DNA from: Planctomycetaceae bacterium
GTDB taxonomy: Bacteria > Planctomycetota > Planctomycetia > Planctomycetales > Planctomycetaceae
Assembly (NCBI GenBank): GCA_024742875.1
Contig: JANSXP010000019.1
Span: 1-64,000, forward strand
Length of the DNA: 64,000 nt
Reading direction: 5' to 3'
The translations under genes and the position numbers were made by a program. The notes beneath the pieces were generated by a model. The model was not told the origin of the DNA. It saw only the letters and a program-made list of their open reading frames with translations, and did no database searches. Numbering within the stretch: position 1 is the stretch's first letter; every line of letters starts with the position of its first letter. Shown piece by piece: positions 16,774 to 33,629 of this stretch.

Positions 16774-18753
16774 TCAGCGTGGTTCTGTTTTCAGCACCGG
16801 CGCCTTTTGCGGCTCGGCAGGTGTCGTCACATAGCGGACGGCCACGCTGGCCAGCGATCGACCCCGCTCATCCTGCCGTGTCACCAGCTGACCGGCGGAC
16901 GTGAATCGCTGTTTTTTGAATTCTCCTTTGAGCGTGCGGATCCAGCCGACCAGCCGGCCCTGGTCGTTGTAGTCGTATTCGTCCACCCACTGCCGTCCCG
17001 TTACGAAGGCAGGGTCCGCATAATTGCTGTTGTAGACCACTTTTTTGATACGTCCGTCGGGCGTGTAGGTCCGCTGCTCGTTGTTGGGGAAGTAGTAACT
17101 GAGGATCGCCGGGGGCGAATAGAACGTCCCGTTGTGGACAAACAGCCCAATATCCACCCGATTGGTTTTCATGGGGGATCCTGGCTGCACGGCAAAACGT
17201 TCGTGGTAGTCGATTTCGATGTCCACCAGTGCCGGGTCCGAGCTGACCGGGCGAATTCGCACCTTGTCCGCTTCGCCCTGCAGCAGCACCCAGTGATACG
17301 TCAGGTCACGTTTGTTCAGGTCCAGCCCGCTGGCTTTCACGCGAATTTTCTTCGTGGGCACCATCGAACGAAAACTGCGGGCCACCGCCAGCGGCGTATC
17401 GAACAGCACCTCGCGGTCGGCAATGTCAAAATAGTCACGTCCCACAATCCCCAGATCGTCCCGGACCATGGTGAGCCGGCCGAAGGGCGGAATGTCGTCC
17501 GGCTGGATCTCGTGAGCGAGTCGCACCATGCGTTCTATGTTCAGCTGTTTGCCGTCAAAAACAACCGGGTGAGCGCGTCCGGACAGATAGTCTTCGTCCG
17601 ATTTCACAAACCGCTGACTGCGTCGCAGGATCATCTGCACACAGTGAAACACGCCGCCTTTGGTCTGCAGCATTTCGAACACATCCGGTCGCAGGGCGGC
17701 CACGGTGGCAGCGACCGCCGTCATGAAGGGCTTGTCAGAATACGAGGACCCCTGAGAGATGATCATGTAGGGCGTGTTGGCGGCATAGACGTCGCCTTTG
17801 TCGGGATCGTAGTCGCGGTGTTCCGGATAAAGATACAGCTGGTTGCGACTGAACCGTTCCGCGACCAGCGTCATCAAAGAGGAATTGGTGTAGGCCAGAC
17901 GTGGCTGACTGCGCCACATAAAACTGCCAGTCAGCGCGGTGGAAGAATTGCCGAATGTCACCATGTTGAAGGCACACTGTGTTTGAAAACCGTTGTCCAG
18001 TCCGGCCTTCTTTGCGGACGGGGAATATTTGACGCGGGACAGCTGAGGAAACTCTTGCCACGCCATATCTGAGTGTTTGCGGTCGTGGTTGTCGTACAGC
18101 ACCTGGCTGAGGCCCACGGCGGTTCCGTCTTCGGCCCATTCGGTGAGCAGCTGGCCGACCACATCCGTGCGACTGGTGATCGGCTGCGTCTTCTGTTTTT
18201 CTGAGGGCGTGAAGCTGAACAGAAAATGATCTGATCCGGCCAGTTTGGCATTCTCTTCATCCACCATGGCGATGCCGTTGCGGATGGGCGACGTCGGATT
18301 GGGCAGCGGCGGCTGCCGCAGGTGGCGGATCAGCGCGGGCCACGCGGATTCGGATTTGAGTTTTCCCAGCTGCGGATCACCAGAGACGGCCAGTGGGTCG
18401 CGAAGTCCCAGATCAGCGGCCGTGTTCAGATCTCGCAGGGCGGCCTCGCGTTTGCCCAGCGCCGCACGCGACTGGGCGCGGTGAAAATAGAACAGGGCGG
18501 CCACAGATTGCGGCAGTTTGTTCACCGCCTGCGTGCACAGTTGCTCGGCAGTTTCAAAGTCACTCTTCTCCAGCGCGGTCCTGAGGCTGGCCGCCAGTTC
18601 GGCGGCGGTGGTCCGCAGCTGCGGCCACTGAAAAATGCTCGGTCGCGACGGTGGGGGAATGTCAGATTCGTCAACACGGCTCACCTGAAAAGTGATTGCG
18701 AGCAGGACGGCAGTAACAGCGGCAACAGACATAAATCTGCGATCTGGCTTCAT
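16774..18753 (-). CDS. Exported protein of unknown function with TPR-like N-terminal region and YD-repeat-like C-terminal segments
   Basis: Start MKPDRRFMSVAAVTAVLLAITFQVS at 18753; 'ETAEQLCTQAVNKLPQSVAALFYFHRAQSRAALGKREAALRDLNTAADLGL' (TPR-like); 'VDEYDYNDQGRLVGWIRTLKGEFKKQRFTSAGQLVTRQDERGR'. Confidence 0.65.
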   Translation of the reverse strand: MKPDRRFMSVAAVTAVLLAITFQVSRVDESDIPPPSRPSIFQWPQLRTTAAELAASLRTALEKSDFETAEQLCTQAVNKLPQSVAALFYFHRAQSRAALGKREAALRDLNTAADLGLRDPLAVSGDPQLGKLKSESAWPALIRHLRQPPLPNPTSPIRNGIAMVDEENAKLAGSDHFLFSFTPSEKQKTQPITSRTDVVGQLLTEWAEDGTAVGLSQVLYDNHDRKHSDMAWQEFPQLSRVKYSPSAKKAGLDNGFQTQCAFNMVTFGNSSTALTGSFMWRSQPRLAYTNSSLMTLVAERFSRNQLYLYPEHRDYDPDKGDVYAANTPYMIISQGSSYSDKPFMTAVAATVAALRPDVFEMLQTKGGVFHCVQMILRRSQRFVKSDEDYLSGRAHPVVFDGKQLNIERMVRLAHEIQPDDIPPFGRLTMVRDDLGIVGRDYFDIADREVLFDTPLAVARSFRSMVPTKKIRVKASGLDLNKRDLTYHWVLLQGEADKVRIRPVSSDPALVDIEIDYHERFAVQPGSPMKTNRVDIGLFVHNGTFYSPPAILSYYFPNNEQRTYTPDGRIKKVVYNSNYADPAFVTGRQWVDEYDYNDQGRLVGWIRTLKGEFKKQRFTSAGQLVTRQDERGRSLASVAVRYVTTPAEPQKAPVLKTEPR

Positions 18754-18763
18754 AAGGTAAGAC

Positions 18764-20446
18764 TCAGGAAGAAAGGGACTCCTGAAACCTGTTTTCGAAC
18801 TTCGGGTCGGGCAGCAAACATGGGTGTTTGTACTGTTCCTCACTGCCGCTGGACTTGCGGAGACGATTGCGACGGAATTGTTCCCAGTCCGATGCACTCA
18901 CCTGCTGACATCTTATCCCGGCAAGTCGACCGGATTCACGTTTGTCCTGATATTCGCAGTTGAGTTGTCGCAATGCCTGCTCCACGTCCGCCGCGACCTG
19001 CTCCGGCGAGAGGCTTGCACCGGACGCATCAATATACAGTTGATATCCGGGTGGTTCTCCCCAAACGGGCGACAGCGTGAAACGTCCCAGTCGTTCTGCA
19101 TGTCCGGAACGACGCACGGCCTCGATCACCTGCGACTCGGACAGCTTCTCGCCGGTGATGCTCGACATGGAACTTCCCTTGTGCAGAAATTCGAGCAGGG
19201 GCGTGGTGCCATAATGTCCTGTGCACCGAACAACATCACGAATGTTGTAGCGGTACAGTCCGCTGCACGTGGTCAGCAGGATGAAGTATTCGCAGCCGGC
19301 CGTCAGCCGATGCGCGGGCAGGATGGTGGGGGAGGTGGTCTGTGACTGTTCGACCGGCAGAAACTCGAAATAGTGTGACTCGACGTCCAGAAGGCCGGCC
19401 GAAGTTTCATCGGCAATGGGAATGGTCATCCGACCTTCGCTGGCGTGCAGGCCATGATCCCGCACGGGTATCGAACCGAAGCGGGCCGACAGGGCATCAC
19501 GAAACGCGCCCGCGCTGCCGCCGGTCCATACTCCCAGGCAGCACAGAGACGGCCATACGGCGGTCGGCTCAAAACATCCGTGCTGTTCAAGAATGTGCTG
19601 CAGCTGCGCGGCGCGTGCCGCATTGGGACGCATTCTTCGGGTCAGTTGCTGCTGCACGGCCGGGGGAATTGTTTCCGCTGACAGTGTGCCGTCATGAATG
19701 TCACGCAGCAGCCGTTCGGCGCGATCTGCGGCAATATTGAGCAGGCGAATGAGCGTGGCCGGATTGGCGGTCACCATCATGCCCACCCAGGGCTCGGCCA
19801 GCGCAAACCTGAGTGCGGCGTGGTAGCGGTCTTCGGACTGTGTGATTTTGGCCGTGGCCCCTGGCACCACATACAGCCTGCGGACGATTGGCTTCTGCAT
19901 GGAGGTCACCAGACCGCTGATGTTGCCACACGGCGTGCCGTCTGCGGCAAAGAACGATTCGTGATCGCTGGACAGCTGCACCATCCGCAGCTGTTTCAGT
20001 TCGGGGTGATCCTGATGGGCGCCAATGCCCCATCGCTGCCAGCCGGTCCGATAACACTTCAGGAAATGGTCTGTGACGGGAATCAGTTTGGACTGCCCGG
20101 TGGTGCCGCTGGTGGTGGCAAACATCAACAGGCGGTTGCCGGATCCCAGCAAAGCCCGATGGTCGCCGGTCTGCATCTGCTCCACGGACGGGCGAATCGA
20201 CTCATAATCGGACACCGGCATGCGGGTAGCAAACTCATCCGGCGTCAACTCCGGAGACAAACCGTGTGTTTGCGAATAGCGGCTGTCCGCATTCAGCCGC
20301 AGGATGCGCTGCAGCGTGGCCGTTTGAATGTGTTCGCAGTGGTTGTGGGCGGCCTGCAGAAAACGATCGCGATCGCGCAGCAGGCGGCGGCGCAGGATGC
20401 CCCCGATGGCGGCTCGAATTCGATTTCGCAGCGGGACAGACTCCAT
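18764..20446 (-). CDS. GH3 auxin-responsive promoter family protein (putative acyl-adenylating amido synthetase)
   Basis: ORF 18764..20488, likely start MESVPLRNRIRAAIGGILRRRL. 'MPVSDYESIRPSVEQMQTGDHRALLGSGNRLLMFATTSGTTGQSKLIPVT', 'YFEFLPVE', 'CSGLYRYNIRDVVRCTG'. Confidence 0.85.
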   Translation of the reverse strand: MESVPLRNRIRAAIGGILRRRLLRDRDRFLQAAHNHCEHIQTATLQRILRLNADSRYSQTHGLSPELTPDEFATRMPVSDYESIRPSVEQMQTGDHRALLGSGNRLLMFATTSGTTGQSKLIPVTDHFLKCYRTGWQRWGIGAHQDHPELKQLRMVQLSSDHESFFAADGTPCGNISGLVTSMQKPIVRRLYVVPGATAKITQSEDRYHAALRFALAEPWVGMMVTANPATLIRLLNIAADRAERLLRDIHDGTLSAETIPPAVQQQLTRRMRPNAARAAQLQHILEQHGCFEPTAVWPSLCCLGVWTGGSAGAFRDALSARFGSIPVRDHGLHASEGRMTIPIADETSAGLLDVESHYFEFLPVEQSQTTSPTILPAHRLTAGCEYFILLTTCSGLYRYNIRDVVRCTGHYGTTPLLEFLHKGSSMSSITGEKLSESQVIEAVRRSGHAERLGRFTLSPVWGEPPGYQLYIDASGASLSPEQVAADVEQALRQLNCEYQDKRESGRLAGIRCQQVSASDWEQFRRNRLRKSSGSEEQYKHPCLLPDPKFENRFQESLSS

Positions 20447-20511
20447 CCGCTCTCCGGGACTGTGGGCTGAGGGGACGACAGTGAGCAAAATCGACCATCG
20501 TCGGACAGCGC

Positions 20512-25653: not shown

Positions 25654-26658
25654 TTAATTCTTTGATTTTCGTCCCGGTGGAATCGTCAGTAGTTTGGGGG
25701 CCAGCGCTTCGGTGTCCACGCTTTCGATCGGCTCACTAATCAGCACCTCTCCCAGTGCTTTCTCCCAGTCCGCCCGCAGCAGCAGGTCAAAACCGGGATT
25801 CTGGTTTTTCACCTGGCAGGAACATGGCCCGGCCATAAAGGACGAGGCCGTGCGAACCGTGTCGGCGGCGATGCCTTTGCCCACCAGCGCGTACAGCACG
25901 CGGCCGCGGCCAAACACCGGAAAAGCGAGTGGCTGATCGAAGCTGGTCAGGTCTTCTTCGCTGTTCAGCAGCGACTGCAGCAGAAACTGCTCTGCCGGGG
26001 CATCGCGTTTGAGAATCACCGTGGAGAATTTGATCTGCAGCGGCACCTTCACCTTTGTCAGAACGTCTGGCGCCACCTCCAGTTCCTCGGGAGTCGGCAG
26101 TTCCATCCACTGTTCGTCGGCCGCCAGCTGGTCCTGCAGTCTCTTCAGAGCCGCTTTGTCGTCCGCATCCCGACCACAGGGAACAAAAATCCAGACAGCC
26201 GAATCGCCCTGCTGCAGCTTCTCACGCACCTTTTTCCGCACGGGAGAATCGAGCATCATGTCTACGCTGTCGGTGCTGATTTTGCACTCGTGCATGGGCT
26301 GCGTCCGGCCGACGCCGTTCGCTGCCGGGTAGTAGACGAACATCGCCGATTTTGCACTGCCCGCCTCATACCTGCTGCGCACCGCTGCCGGTACGCTCTT
26401 ATCGTCAGGCCCGGCGACCGTGACTTCGATCATTGGCGACTGGCCTGCGGATTTGGCATCGGCGGCTGTCTGCAGGGCTTTCACGGCCGCCTGCTGCGAC
26501 GCGTTCAGATCTCCCTGATGAATGACGAACACCTGATAGCGGTCGGCATTCCAGCGTTCCAGCGCGTAACGGAACACGGGCACCTGGCAGGCCAGCAGCG
26601 GCACACTCAGAGCTACAGCAAGCAGCGGGATGCGGATGGTGGGTCGAAACACGCTCAT
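25654..26658 (-). CDS. Exported/lipoprotein-like protein of unknown function
   Basis: MSVFRPTIRIPLLAVALSVPLLACQVPVFRYALERWNADRYQVFVIHQGD...; signal/lipobox-like 'LLAC'; conserved-looking 'GPCSCQVKNQNPGFDLLLRADWEKAL'. Start overlaps the upstream stop by ATGA. Confidence 0.75.
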   Translation of the reverse strand: MSVFRPTIRIPLLAVALSVPLLACQVPVFRYALERWNADRYQVFVIHQGDLNASQQAAVKALQTAADAKSAGQSPMIEVTVAGPDDKSVPAAVRSRYEAGSAKSAMFVYYPAANGVGRTQPMHECKISTDSVDMMLDSPVRKKVREKLQQGDSAVWIFVPCGRDADDKAALKRLQDQLAADEQWMELPTPEELEVAPDVLTKVKVPLQIKFSTVILKRDAPAEQFLLQSLLNSEEDLTSFDQPLAFPVFGRGRVLYALVGKGIAADTVRTASSFMAGPCSCQVKNQNPGFDLLLRADWEKALGEVLISEPIESVDTEALAPKLLTIPPGRKSKN

Positions 26659-29600
26659 TGGTCGTTCCCCTCGGATCGGCTGGCCGCGGCCACCGCTTCG
26701 TTGCGTCGAATCTCAATGCCGCACAGCGGCAGCAGTGTGTCCAGTTCCGAGTAGTCAAGATCTGTCACCAGTCGGTCCTGCACGGGGACTTCAAACGTGC
26801 AGGTCACCAGGGGGGCCCCATCCACCTGCCCCCGTTTTCGTACGGCGACCGACGTGGAACGTGATTCCCCATTGGCGGTGACCTTCAGCTTTTGCAGGTC
26901 GGCCGCTCGGGTCCGGGCAAAGTGCAGCATGACCGTGTAGCTGGCAGGAGCGTCCTGTTTGGAAAGCAAATCCGCTTCAAAATGTGACAGGCCCCGGGCA
27001 CCAGAGGCATACAGCCATGGCTGCTCACAGGCCGCGAACGCGGGGTTACTTTGATTGCGACTGAACCAGCCGCCACCGTCAGCGAACTTCGCCCTCATGT
27101 CGAACACATATTCCAGTCGGCCACGACTGCTGGGCCGGGGGAAACCAAACCACTCGCTGCGGGACTCGTCCATGTGGTCGCCGGGAGCCCCCAGATTGAC
27201 GGCCAGCCGCCGCACGGGAGTCGCACTGCCAACCGCACTGAAAATGCCCCATGATTTGCTTTCCGTTTTGGGTTCCAGCACCACGGTGGAGGCAATCGAA
27301 AACTGACACACACAGCCCGCGCTGGCTTCCGGAATCATCACCAGTCCGTTGCCTGGAATCGCGTTGACCCAGCAGCCCAGTCGCTGTCCGGCAAAGTGTT
27401 TGGTGCCGCTGTCGTTGTACAGGTCGTAGTAGCCAATAAATCCGGAACGGAAGAACATCATGTTGGGTGTGGCCGTGATGACGCCGCAGTGGTGCCCCGG
27501 GCGGCTGAATCGCCAGTCGCTGTCTTCACCGGTCATCGGATGCGGTCGCTTTTTGGTCTCGCCGGTCGCCAGATTGAAGGCCCAGGGCTCTGCAAAAATC
27601 TCGCCGCCAATCACGGCCGGCCGATTCATGTAGTTGGCATTCTTCGACCACTGTTCCTGCCCCGTACTGGCGTCGAGGACCAGCAGTTTGCGTTTCTCAA
27701 ACTCACCCGCCAGAAACTGCCGCCAATAGTGGCCATTGGCGTTGGCGCCGCACAGCACCAGATAGCCGTCGGCGTACATCACTGTCAGGCTGCCACCACC
27801 GGCGCTGACGTTGGTGGTGTCGGTGACGTTGACGGGACGCTCCCACACCTTCTTTCCCGTTTTGCGGTCGATGGCCACGGCCAGACGCAGGTCGAGGCGT
27901 TTCATTTCCTCTTCGGCTTTCTTCGCTGCTTCGCCCGTCAGGTTCTTCAGTTCCCCCTTGTCGCGGCGGTACAGCGCCTGCCGTTCTTCGGGCGTGATGG
28001 AACTGTCAATGAAGTACACATGGTCCGGGCCAATGGCGATGGTCGTATGCAGAATGTTGCTGCCACGATACACCCAGGCCAGTTCTTTGCTTTTGGTGTC
28101 AAAGGCAAACACGGCGTCGGTCTGCGTTTTGACGGTCAGGCCGCGGCGGCGCAGTTTGGCTTCCAGTTCTTCACGAATCGTGCTGGTGCCGAACAACTGG
28201 TTCTGATCGTACGCCACATACGCCCACGCCCGATCGATGCCATCAGGGGAGGGAGGCGTCTGATAGTCGGCGACCACCTGTCCGGTGGCCCCATCCAGTT
28301 CCCTGCATTTGTCTTCCACGGCCACAAACAGAGATTGCTCGCTGGCGGCCAGATTGTGGGTCTCGCGGTTGTTGAAGACACCCGTGCGAATGGCGCCTGG
28401 GTTGGCAAACTCCCACAGGAAATTTCCGTTGTACGCATCGTACGCCATGACACTGTCAACCCCCTGAATGAACATGCGTCCGTTGGTGGACAGCGGCGCA
28501 CCGGCCGCTTCGTGGCGGTTGATCATGGAACTGGGACCGGGATCGCCGTACCACAGCACTCCCAAACCGTCCTTCACGCGGGCGTCATCGCTCAGCGACG
28601 TGTTGGCCGCGTTGCCATACTGATGCGACCAGGCTCCGGCGCCTGGTAACTGGCCCCGCGTAAACGCCACCCAGTTGTCCGGCGATGAGGTTTCTCCATG
28701 CACCGACTGCAGCATGGCGGACGTCCACTGCAGTGCGGCCGCTTTGTCTTTTTGGGCGGACAGCATCATCACACCGCCACAGGGTTTCAGAAAACGCGCC
28801 AGAGCCTCGGCTGTGGCCGGCATCCGACCGGTGGTCAGCTGTGTTTCCGAGACAACCAGATTGGCAAAGTAATTGGAAAAGGGAATGCTGGTCTCATCGC
28901 AATGCACAACCGTAACACGCGAGCCATGCAGTCCGGCCGCTTCCAGTGTTTTCCGTGCCGCCTCGGCCTGGGCGGCGTCGTCTTCCACGGCGAAAATCGT
29001 CAGGCGGCTTTGCTCGGCCAGTGCCGCCGCCAGGCGACCTTCCCCGCAGCCGACAACCAAACAGAATCCGGTTGTCTGCTGACTGTGTTTCAGGATTTGC
29101 GCCGCGGCCGTTTTCATGGACTCCTGACGGTCATCATCAAACGCGATCCCGGCTTTGGCCGGCCAGTTCGCCGTGGGGCCGCTGCCCCTGCGGAAGGCGT
29201 AAATGCATCCGGTTTCCGTGCTGACGGTCAGCACGTCGTCGCTGGCCGCCAGTCCCGTCACGTTGCCATCAACGGCGGACTTCCAGACGATCGTGCCGTT
29301 GTGGCGATTCATCATCCAGACCTCATCCTGTCCACCGGCCACCAGGTAATCAGCCGTGGCAATCAGCGCATCATCAAAAGCGCAGGGCACTTCCCAGACG
29401 ATGCCCACTCCGGCGTACTCTTTCATTTTCTGTTTGGCGGTCGCCAGTTTTTTCGGATCCCTGCGATCGGAGCGAGCCCGCAGGAACCACTTTTGTTTTT
29501 CCTGACTGGCACGCGCGTGTTCGGCACGATCCACGCAGAACACTTTTTCGCCGTCCATCAGATAGGCCCGGTCATCCGCCAGCACCATCTGTCGGCCACC

Positions 29601-30596
29601 GATGTACGATTCGCCCACCGCGCCGCTGGCCTCATCCATGGCCAGGAAATGGTGCGGACCACCCGCGTACACCTGCCCGTCGCCCAGCAGCGCTTTGGTG
29701 CCGCCCACCACGCCACCGGCGTCAGTCCGCCAGGAGTACTTCCTCTGGAACACGATGTCGCCCGTTTCTCGCGACAGGGCGACCGGCAAAGAACGGCCGG
29801 ACGGCACAAACAGGGTGGTCTCATTGGCCAGCAGGTATCCCTGGGGGGACAAGTCATTGCGGCCCGCGTTCTGCTGGCTGATGGTGTCGTTCTTCCAGAT
29901 GATCTCCCCGGTCTGTGCGCTGGCAGCGACCATATAGATCAGTTCGTGGGGAAACACGCCGGCACCAAAGTAGGCCACGTCGCCATCAATGAGCACGCCG
30001 GTACGCACGGGCCAGCGAGAGATCATTTCTCCCCGCGCCAGCAGGCGATCATCTGCGGGGCCGACCCTCTGTTTCCATGCCAGCTCGCCCGTCTGCTGAC
30101 GGACGCAGTACACCCAACCGTCGTCCGATCCAAAATACACGTTGTCAAACGCCAGTGAGGGAGCCAGGCGAATCGGGCCGTCGGTGGGGAAGGTCCAAAC
30201 CGGTTGTCCGGTGACGGCATCCACACAGTACACGTTATTGTCGACCGTGCTGCCAAAGTAAACGCGATCGCCACCAATGACCGTCTGGATGGACGAATCA
30301 AACGCCACCCGATGGCGCATTTCATGGCCTTCAATAGGTGCGCTGCGAGGACCGGCCCACGCTTTGACGATGGGGGCCGGCGTGCGATAAACCCAGGCAG
30401 GATGCAGTTCGCCGGGCAGCTTCGCTCTGGTGAAGCCCGCGCGATCGGCGCCATTCAGATAGGCGGGCCAGTCGCCGGCGTTCAGCCTGCTGGCACCTGG
30501 CAGCATGACCGCAGCCATGATGGCGAGTTGCAGTCGATAGCAGGCCGCGCTGGAGAACGATGTTCTTACACAACTGAGAAGCGTCAACATACTCAA
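26655..30596 (-). CDS. Giant exported PQQ-type beta-propeller protein with embedded class I SAM methyltransferase-like domain
   Basis: Signal peptide ...LAIMAAVMLPGASRLNAG-DWPAYLNGADRAGFT; propeller repeats 'DNVYCVDAVTGQPVWTFPTDGPIRLAPSLAFDNVYFGSDDGWVYCVRQQTGELAW'; insert 'FCLVVGCGEGRLAAALAEQSRLTIFAVEDDAAQAEAARKTL...FLKPCGGVMML' (about 28730-29130). Confidence 0.85.
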   Translation of the reverse strand: MSMLTLLSCVRTSFSSAACYRLQLAIMAAVMLPGASRLNAGDWPAYLNGADRAGFTRAKLPGELHPAWVYRTPAPIVKAWAGPRSAPIEGHEMRHRVAFDSSIQTVIGGDRVYFGSTVDNNVYCVDAVTGQPVWTFPTDGPIRLAPSLAFDNVYFGSDDGWVYCVRQQTGELAWKQRVGPADDRLLARGEMISRWPVRTGVLIDGDVAYFGAGVFPHELIYMVAASAQTGEIIWKNDTISQQNAGRNDLSPQGYLLANETTLFVPSGRSLPVALSRETGDIVFQRKYSWRTDAGGVVGGTKALLGDGQVYAGGPHHFLAMDEASGAVGESYIGGRQMVLADDRAYLMDGEKVFCVDRAEHARASQEKQKWFLRARSDRRDPKKLATAKQKMKEYAGVGIVWEVPCAFDDALIATADYLVAGGQDEVWMMNRHNGTIVWKSAVDGNVTGLAASDDVLTVSTETGCIYAFRRGSGPTANWPAKAGIAFDDDRQESMKTAAAQILKHSQQTTGFCLVVGCGEGRLAAALAEQSRLTIFAVEDDAAQAEAARKTLEAAGLHGSRVTVVHCDETSIPFSNYFANLVVSETQLTTGRMPATAEALARFLKPCGGVMMLSAQKDKAAALQWTSAMLQSVHGETSSPDNWVAFTRGQLPGAGAWSHQYGNAANTSLSDDARVKDGLGVLWYGDPGPSSMINRHEAAGAPLSTNGRMFIQGVDSVMAYDAYNGNFLWEFANPGAIRTGVFNNRETHNLAASEQSLFVAVEDKCRELDGATGQVVADYQTPPSPDGIDRAWAYVAYDQNQLFGTSTIREELEAKLRRRGLTVKTQTDAVFAFDTKSKELAWVYRGSNILHTTIAIGPDHVYFIDSSITPEERQALYRRDKGELKNLTGEAAKKAEEEMKRLDLRLAVAIDRKTGKKVWERPVNVTDTTNVSAGGGSLTVMYADGYLVLCGANANGHYWRQFLAGEFEKRKLLVLDASTGQEQWSKNANYMNRPAVIGGEIFAEPWAFNLATGETKKRPHPMTGEDSDWRFSRPGHHCGVITATPNMMFFRSGFIGYYDLYNDSGTKHFAGQRLGCWVNAIPGNGLVMIPEASAGCVCQFSIASTVVLEPKTESKSWGIFSAVGSATPVRRLAVNLGAPGDHMDESRSEWFGFPRPSSRGRLEYVFDMRAKFADGGGWFSRNQSNPAFAACEQPWLYASGARGLSHFEADLLSKQDAPASYTVMLHFARTRAADLQKLKVTANGESRSTSVAVRKRGQVDGAPLVTCTFEVPVQDRLVTDLDYSELDTLLPLCGIEIRRNEAVAAASRSEGNDQ

Positions 30597-30707: not shown

Positions 30708-31022
30708 CAGAGGCGGCGCAACCTGGCGGTCGGACGTCTGAGTATACAGACTCAAAGCGTGTTGCCGACTGACCGGCGATAAGTTCGTGCAAAGTTAACT
30801 GCACTTGCGCGCAGCTTTCATAAATGCAGAGCGGGTTGCCGTCCGTCCCTAAAAACCGACTGCGCACACTGGCGGGCTGTGCAGTCCCCGCCTATCCTGA
30901 CATCAGGGCGCTGATGCGGAACCACGCAGTGCTGACCGTGATCACGGTCGCCGCCTTCGCTCCGCCTGATCCCCCCCTTGTGACACTGCCTTCCGTCGTT
31001 TCAAATTCTGTTGGATGCTGCC

Positions 31023-32540
31023 ATGGCGAAGTCCTCAGTCGCTTTTCTGGTCTCAGTGGTCGCTGTGGTGGCGCTGATCTGGGCTGTCTCCGGTGTCGAC
31101 AATCGTCCCGCTCCCGCTGATGCTACGAGCGGCTCCGAGGGTGATGAACGGCCTGAGGTGACGCTCTATTGCGCAGCCAGCAATCGTGCGGTGATGGAAG
31201 AAGTTCGCACCGCTTACGAAGAGGAAACGGGACGTCGAGTGACCATCCAGTATGGTCCGTCGCAGACGCTGCTGTCACAGCTGGAGATTGCCAAAACGGG
31301 AGACCTCTATCTGCCAGCGGATGACAGCTTTTTGAAGACAGCGGCCAAGAAGGGCATCGTGAATGAGATGCTGCCGCTGGCTCGCATGCAGGTTGGTCTG
31401 GTTGTTCCCAAAGGGAACCCGCAAAAAATCGCCTCACTGCAGGACGCCATCGACCAGAAGCTTCGCATTGTCCAGGCGAATCCCGATGCCGCGGCGGTCG
31501 CCAAACTCACGCGTCAGTTTCTCAAACAGGCGGGGACATGGAAACAGCTGGATGAAGCCACGACCGCCTATCGCACCACAGTGACGGATGTGGCCAATGA
31601 TCTGCTGGTGGGCGCGGCGGACGTGGGCATTGTGTATGACGCCGTGCTGCACACCTATCCCAAACTGGAGTTCGTCAATGTGCCCGAGCTGGCAGACGCG
31701 GCTTCGGAGATTGCCGTTGGTGTGCTGGACTTTTCCAGCCAGCCGGCCGCCGCCCTGCACTTTGGACGCTACGTCACGGCCACCGATCGCGGATTGAAAA
31801 ACTATGCAGCGCACGGCTTTCAGACGTCGGCGGGAGATGCCTGGGCGGAGGTCCCCGAGCTTTCCGTTTACGCCGGTTCCATGCTGCGGCCAGCCATTGA
31901 AGACACGATTGTGGAGTTTGAAAAACGCGAAGGCGTACGGGTCTCGCGAGTGTACAACGGCTGTGGCATTCTCGTTTCGCAGATGCAGGCCGGGCAGCAT
32001 CCGGACGCGTATTTTGCCTGCGACAAAGAGTTCATGAATCAGGTGACCGATCTTTTTCCCGAACCCGTGGACGTGTCACAGAATGAGCTGGTGATTCTCG
32101 TTCAAAAAGGCAACCCACACGGCATCGTATCGCTGCGCGATCTTGGCAAAGACAATCTGAGGGTGGGGATTGGCCACGAAAAGCAGTGTGCCATGGGCTG
32201 GATCACTCAGAACACACTGAAGGAAGGTGGCATCCAGACGGAGGTGATGGCCAACGTGACCGTGCAGACGCCGACCGGCGATATGCTGGTCAATCAGATG
32301 CTCACGGGCTCACTGGACGCGGCGGTTGTCTACCTGAGCAACGCGGCGGGCGCGGGTGAGAAACTGGACGCTCTGCAAATTCAGGGCATCGAATGTTCGA
32401 CGGCCACGCAACCCTGGGCGGTGGCGGAGCAGTCAAAGTATCCGCAGCTGGCCTCCCGACTGTTCGCAACCATCTGCTCTGACGAAAGCCAGGAGATCTT
32501 TGCCGCCGAAGGCTTTCGCTGGCAGCTGCCTGAGCGTTAG
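31023..32540 (+). CDS. Extracellular solute-binding protein with two tandem ModA-like domains
   Basis: First half 'VTLYCAASNRAVMEEVRTAYEEETGRRVTIQYGPSQTLLSQLEIAKTGDLYLPADDSFL'; second half 'LSVYAGSMLRPAIEDTIVEFEKREGVRVSRVYNGCGILVSQMQAGQHPDAYFACDKEFM...TPTGDMLVNQMLTGSLDAAVVYLSNA'. Confidence 0.85.
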   Translation: MAKSSVAFLVSVVAVVALIWAVSGVDNRPAPADATSGSEGDERPEVTLYCAASNRAVMEEVRTAYEEETGRRVTIQYGPSQTLLSQLEIAKTGDLYLPADDSFLKTAAKKGIVNEMLPLARMQVGLVVPKGNPQKIASLQDAIDQKLRIVQANPDAAAVAKLTRQFLKQAGTWKQLDEATTAYRTTVTDVANDLLVGAADVGIVYDAVLHTYPKLEFVNVPELADAASEIAVGVLDFSSQPAAALHFGRYVTATDRGLKNYAAHGFQTSAGDAWAEVPELSVYAGSMLRPAIEDTIVEFEKREGVRVSRVYNGCGILVSQMQAGQHPDAYFACDKEFMNQVTDLFPEPVDVSQNELVILVQKGNPHGIVSLRDLGKDNLRVGIGHEKQCAMGWITQNTLKEGGIQTEVMANVTVQTPTGDMLVNQMLTGSLDAAVVYLSNAAGAGEKLDALQIQGIECSTATQPWAVAEQSKYPQLASRLFATICSDESQEIFAAEGFRWQLPER

Positions 32541-32597
32541 TGTTCGCTGTCGTTTGTTGTCGCCCACTGTTCTGTACCGCATTCACAGCGCTGATTC

Positions 32598-33629
32598 ATG
32601 GCCCAGCCGCCCCGATCCGAAGAGCAGAAAGATCCTCACACGGATGCTGCTGCGCCGGTCGCGCAGGCTGCAACTGCTACGACTGCTGCGCCCGCCGGCC
32701 CGGTCCCGGCGGCCGTCTCCCGCAAATCCAGCTCGCTGCCGGATGTCGTGTTCTTTTTGACGATGGGGGGGCTTTCGGCCTGTTTTATTCTGCTCATCGT
32801 CCTGCTGATTGTGGCCGACGTGATGTTCACAACGCCGGCCAATTTCTGGGCCGCACTCACCAAGCCGGAAATTCAGGCCGCGTTTCGGCTGACGCTCATT
32901 ACATGCACTCTGGCCACCATCCTGTCGTTATGGGTTGCCACGCCGCTGGGCTATCTGTTGTCCCGCTATCGTTTTCCCGGGCGCTGGCTGGTGGACACAA
33001 TCGTTGATATTCCCGTGGTGCTGCCGCCGCTGGTACTGGGGCTGAGTCTGCTGATCCTGTTTCACTTTGAGATTCCCTTCGGGGGAGGGAGCGATGCGGC
33101 CACCACGCTGGTTGACAGGAATGGTGGCGTGGACAGCGGCAACGGAGCGTCGTCCAGCTGGCAACTGGAACGCTGGCTGCGAGACGATGTGGGCTTTCCT
33201 GTGACTTACGAATGGCCGGCTGTCGTGCTGGCACAGTTTGCGGTGTCGTGCGCGTTTGCGGTGCGCACGATGCGGGTGACCTTCGACCAGATCAACCCTC
33301 GCGCCGAGGATGTGGCGCGCACGCTCGGCTGCAATCGAGCGCAGGCCTTTCTGCGAATTGCTCTGCCGCAGTCGTGGCGGGGAATGATTGCCGCGGCCAC
33401 CATTTCGTGGGCGCGGGCACTGGGAGAATTTGGTCCCATTCTGGTGTTTGCCGGGTCCACGCGATTTCGCACCGAGGTGCTCTCGACCACCGTCTTTCTG
33501 GAATTGAGCATCGGGCAGCTGGATGCGGCCGTCGCCGTCTCACTGCTGATGGTGGGCATCGCGGTGGGCGTCCTGCTGGGCCTGCGCTGGCTGGGCGCGG
33601 GGGTCGCGTTTTCCGCGCAGCAGCACTGA
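32598..33629 (+). CDS. Molybdate/sulfate-type ABC transporter permease (ModB-like)
   Basis: Multiple TM helices; EAA-loop-like 'NPRAEDVARTLGCNRAQAFLRIALPQSWRGMIAAATISWARALGEFGPILVFAGSTRFRTEVLSTTVFLELSIGQLDAAVAVSLLMV', typical ModB/CysT. Confidence 0.9.
   Translation: MAQPPRSEEQKDPHTDAAAPVAQAATATTAAPAGPVPAAVSRKSSSLPDVVFFLTMGGLSACFILLIVLLIVADVMFTTPANFWAALTKPEIQAAFRLTLITCTLATILSLWVATPLGYLLSRYRFPGRWLVDTIVDIPVVLPPLVLGLSLLILFHFEIPFGGGSDAATTLVDRNGGVDSGNGASSSWQLERWLRDDVGFPVTYEWPAVVLAQFAVSCAFAVRTMRVTFDQINPRAEDVARTLGCNRAQAFLRIALPQSWRGMIAAATISWARALGEFGPILVFAGSTRFRTEVLSTTVFLELSIGQLDAAVAVSLLMVGIAVGVLLGLRWLGAGVAFSAQQH

Follow-up and report, generated by a model that had tools for sequence, protein, structure and literature searches.

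What is a methyltransferase fold doing in a protein that leaves the cytoplasm, outside which S-adenosylmethionine (SAM) is not expected? The question is raised by P0001, a 1313-residue protein encoded on the minus strand (26655..30596) of the window, i.e., the 64,000-nucleotide stretch of Planctomycetaceae contig JANSXP010000019.1 analyzed here. The initial annotation had described a class I methyltransferase (MTase)-like domain lodged between the β-propellers of an apparently exported protein, and had called the arrangement paradoxical. The peptide quoted there is present in the minus-strand translation, with FCLVVGCGEG starting at residue 511 (window 29066) and GGVMML at residue 607 (28778). 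The placement of the domain at 28730-29130 was correct, while its extent is slightly wider, at 28647..29150 (residues ~483–650).

The P0001 reading frame as translated begins at TTG. Two codons on, at window 30590, an ATG preceded by GGAG is the likely start; it would open a signal peptide (MLTLLSC...GASRLNA, 30477..30590, minus) comprising a hydrophobic stretch and an AxA-like site in front of GDWPAY, the cleavage site being approximate. The features that follow lie on the same strand. An N-terminal β-propeller (residues ~42–478, 29163..30473) is recognized by PQQ_2, by an all-β repeat in the structural model, and by Foldseek matches to BamB and quinoproteins; then come the MTase-fold domain, with motif I GCGEG at residues 516–520 (29037..29051), and a second β-propeller (residues ~653–1130, 27207..28640). 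The C-terminal β-rich domain (residues ~1131–1313, 26655..27206) rests on model secondary structure up to residue 1230 and has no family assigned. A model of residues 42–1230 (pLDDT 90.1, pTM 0.92) reproduces this order, with the MTase domain at residues ~489–647 and the β-rich part last; the pTM makes the predicted placement of the domain between the propellers a confident one. In Pfam searches PQQ_2 (E=1.8e-33) flanks Methyltransf_25 on both sides.

The MTase-like domain proposed from motifs is borne out by independent methods. Methyltransf_25 matches residues 513–607 with 40.5 bits (cutoff 27, E=4.5e-10) and Methyltransf_11 scores 31.7 bits (cutoff 21.2). AlphaFold, given an alignment of 105 sequences, models residues 475–662 with a pLDDT of 93.7 and a pTM of 0.89, in the alternating β/α order typical of class I MTases. 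The best PDB match by Foldseek is 3dlc (E=5e-12), and nearly all top matches are class I MTases, joined by spermidine synthases of the same fold; the domain profile, run against PDB sequences, also finds 3dlc (E=2.6e-15). Both AlphaFold and Foldseek thus describe the seven-strand, Rossmann-like α/β fold of this class. Pfam, AlphaFold, and Foldseek together indicate that the insert is neither a chance motif, which the above-cutoff Pfam scores and the confident model rule out, nor an extra propeller blade or other non-Rossmann fold, the outcome that had been named as refuting the proposal. An assembly or fusion artefact is likewise ruled out, as dozens of genomes show the same architecture.

By fold, then, the P0001 domain is a class I MTase, and the host protein belongs with the planctomycete BamB-like propeller proteins. 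It shares with the Methyltransf_25/11 enzymes (3dlc MMP1179; RebM, 3bus) not only fold, strand order, and the motif I region but also the acidic residue of β2, the post-motif L(K/R)PxGG, and a significant sequence match. Unlike those enzymes, it is exported and embedded between propellers, has FANL for the usual FDxV, and in most orthologs has lost the middle glycine of motif I. The resemblance to BamB/PQQ_2 proteins consists of an exported propeller with PQQ_2 repeats and the propeller fold; BamB, tetrathionate hydrolase, and PQQ alcohol dehydrogenases head the Foldseek matches of the whole model. P0001 differs from these proteins in having two propellers, the MTase-fold insert, and a near-invariant set of four cysteines. 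The curated BamB model TIGR03300 scores P0001 at 67 bits, far short of its cutoff of 285, and the match to the PQQ-dependent dehydrogenase model TIGR03075 is also below cutoff.

Export is the other half of the paradox, and it too withstands scrutiny. A simple heuristic, which is not SignalP, was applied to the 107 members in which the mature start (DWPxYRxDxxRSG-like) is conserved and preceded by sufficient sequence. An uncharged hydrophobic stretch of 11 residues lies no more than 42 residues before the mature start in 98 of these, versus 80 of 2140 interior control segments (3.7%), and small residues occupy positions −3/−1, forming an AxA-like site, in 98 of the 107. Inspection of the nine failing members revealed a misplaced anchor in several, rather than a missing signal peptide. 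Orthologs of P0001 carry canonical signal peptides where P0001 has its signal-peptide-like N-terminus. Export of the family is therefore supported by the sequences, as Sec-type rather than Tat, and the signal peptide whose absence would have undone the proposal is conserved family-wide. That P0001 might stay inside, its N-terminus misread or serving as an anchor and its MTase domain working as an ordinary cytoplasmic enzyme, is in our opinion very improbable. Compared with its orthologs, P0001 does have a less typical signal peptide, with a longer n-region; against this reading, however, stand the excess of hydrophobic stretches over controls, the AxA-like sites, the laminin-G domains found in two members of a sister group, and the position of the MTase domain in that group, directly after the signal peptide and ahead of any propeller. 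Sec substrates cross the membrane unfolded, and a Tat-like signal region occurs in only 1 of the 107 members. For these reasons the suggestion that the domain acts before export is unlikely, and export through Tat of an MTase already folded and loaded is rejected.

The survey of other planctomycetes that had been recommended finds the architecture recurrent. The domain profile matches in 86 of 150 genomes of the same family (E<=1e-5) and in 54 of 294 sampled across the phylum (E<=1e-7), with up to 21 matches per genome; among the matches listed from both samples, the domain resides in large open frames. Orthologs in the same genus and family have it in the same place as P0001, whose own genome contains four loci of the domain family. 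The exported propeller-MTase family is thus Planctomycetota-wide, the genomes sampled being those of Planctomycetota.

The decisive question is whether the SAM site is kept. From tree order, length, and architecture we set three groups: A, the orthologs of P0001 (n=42); B, an exported sister group of mostly ~1000–1060 residues (n=27; L154-L172, L097, L135, L137, L142); and C, in which a signal peptide is followed by the MTase domain (n=10). In group A, motif I mostly reads G-x-E-x-G: the second glycine is replaced by Glu in 35 of 42 proteins, the first is Asp in 9 of 42, and the third is present in all 42. The complete GxGxG that is typical of class I MTases is found in P0001 and three close orthologs, and the remaining 38 of 42 lack it, so that motif I, which had been offered as a sign of SAM use, does not serve as such for the ortholog group. 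Glutamate at the end of β2 is nevertheless invariant (42/42), as is the alanine of the FANL motif, whose asparagine is present in 41 of 42. COMT-type enzymes can accommodate a bulky side chain close to the second glycine, and Glu at that position alone does not exclude SAM.

Group B is different. A DxGCGDG-type motif together with the β2 acid occurs in 23 of 27 members, a three-member subclade having lost the motif (GATNA, GANNA, or GAENA), and Pfam MTase scores are likewise above cutoff. Group C has a complete GxGxG in 7 of 10 members and the β2 acid in 4 of 10; over the family as a whole, the acid is kept in 95 of 105. Judged from these alignments, the common ancestor probably had a canonical SAM site, which is, as far as its residues tell, maintained in group B and altered in the group of P0001, where SAM-dependent catalysis appears doubtful. 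The paradox that motivated this analysis thus holds for the superfamily, given that group B keeps the site, and is weaker for P0001 itself.

A second line of evidence comes from the constraint on neighboring domains. Close orthologs are 42–57% identical in the MTase domain versus 77–86% in propeller 2, which is thus under stronger constraint. Four cysteines of this propeller (Cys1037, Cys1075, Cys1095, and Cys1097) are each unchanged in 66–68 of 69 aligned members, and His658, Arg694, and His695 in 64–66 of 69, where mean column identity is 27%. The cysteines, encoded at 27306-27488 (minus), form a possible disulfide set or metal site. We infer that the functional center of P0001 is located in propeller 2, marked by these Cys, His, and Arg residues, and that the MTase-fold domain, being directly N-terminal to it, may cap or orient this propeller.

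The genes around P0001 provide further context. P0003 (25654..26658, minus), an exported or lipoprotein-like protein, shares 4 bases with the 3′ end of P0001. Homologs occur at 14 related loci and also beside group C genes, and in L110 the P0003 homolog is fused to an MTase-propeller protein; P0003 is likely a partner of P0001. Its family is marked by the motifs ACxVPVFRYALERW and GPCSCQVKxQNPGxD, and searches with P0003 found no relatives in Pfam or PDB. Located 5 kb from P0001, the paralog P0002 (21139..25620, minus) carries a degenerate MTase-fold insert without intact motif I, which gives no MTase match in Pfam and is detected by the domain profile at 176 bits. According to the alignment, the P0002 clade has kept the fold and lost motif I (FGRADDP and similar). 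Gene order of the P0001-P0003-P0002 type recurs in L022 and L025. Divergently upstream of P0001, at 31011-33629 (plus), lie a ModB-like permease and a ModA-like binding protein that is duplicated in tandem and carries the conserved cysteine motifs YNGCGIL, ACD, and QC. Related ModA/ModB-type sets are found near loci of groups A and C (L022, L025, L193, L194, L195), and the link of this transporter to the MTase-propeller genes is suggestive only. Beyond P0002 are a GH3-family protein (18764-20488, minus; Pfam GH3, 208 bits), of a family best known from plants, and, overlapping its frame, a 707-residue protein without a Pfam match (16774-18897, minus).

Current annotations probably label proteins of the P0001 type just as BamB-like or PQQ propeller proteins. 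A planctomycete subcellular proteome study reported 28 BamB paralogs of 43–193 kDa in Tuwongella immobilis, and does not mention an MTase domain among its many BamB paralogs (PMC8567305). In the largely open-access literature searched, there was no description of the exported propeller-MTase-propeller architecture, and no precedent for a periplasmic class I MTase. A precedent for an MTase-like domain in a protein of other function is the N-terminal domain of Dre2/anamorsin, which is not a methyltransferase; the likeness shown is one of fold, and Dre2/anamorsin is a cytosolic eukaryotic Fe-S protein without propellers (PMC3440578).

Taken together, these observations lead us to favor, with slightly better than even confidence, the view that the domain of the P0001 group is a repurposed, non-methylating module, a pseudo-methyltransferase, that serves the second propeller. 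From its sequence, P0001 is a Sec-exported protein whose two BamB-like propellers hold a class I MTase-fold domain between them. In its group the fold, the last glycine of motif I, and a ribose-binding-type Glu at the end of β2 are kept and the motif I loop is altered to G-x-E-x-G; SAM use has presumably been lost. The domain would pack on or cap propeller 2, holding a ligand other than SAM or being purely architectural, and P0001 would work together with P0003. Two of the alternatives offered in the initial annotation, another ligand or cofactor and a structural domain, are supported. Against repurposing, the invariant β2 Glu could mean that a ribose-containing ligand, even SAM, is still bound, and the intact motifs of P0001, its three close orthologs, and most of group B, if read as functional, point the same way.

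The main rival, which we regard as considerably less probable, sees the domain as a module that, once exported, binds a nucleoside-type ligand (candidates include SAH, methylthioadenosine, a dinucleotide, and a quinone-like cofactor), transfers no methyl group, and acts as a sensor or as a cofactor holder for the propeller enzyme. Retention of motif I with the acid in most of group B, of GxGxG in most of group C, and of the β2 acid across nearly the whole family would reflect selection acting on an extracytoplasmic pocket. The kept subset varies, however, the acid being lost in 6 of 10 group C members and the second glycine in the group of P0001, so that no one ligand site is common to all groups. 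It is improbable that the protein is a genuine extracytoplasmic SAM-dependent methyltransferase using SAM that cell lysis sets free or that the planctomycete itself exports; the canonical site and Pfam scores of group B speak for it, but motif I is mostly missing in the orthologs of P0001 and lost in the clade of P0002, and the missing periplasmic precedent also weighs against it. Just as little probability attaches to a decayed MTase domain acting purely as a rigid linker between propellers. Its fast divergence among near orthologs and the persistence of the fold in P0002-type inserts would fit a spacer, but positions whose strict conservation the fold does not obviously require (the β2 Glu and the NYFANLIVSD strip) and the motif I retained by sister groups would not.

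A repurposed module in P0001 leaves a broader possibility, which we consider rather unlikely: that the secreted family, in its GCGDG-keeping group B, has retained the ability to bind SAM or a related nucleoside once outside the cytoplasm, P0001 being a diverged relative. If true, this would amount to a system of extracytoplasmic SAM-type chemistry or sensing. The contrast between motif-losing group A and motif-keeping group B is open to direct experimental test. Phylum-wide and strongly amplified, the family either shows repeated recruitment of an enzyme fold for use outside the cell or points to chemistry of nucleosides or SAM within the planctomycete envelope.
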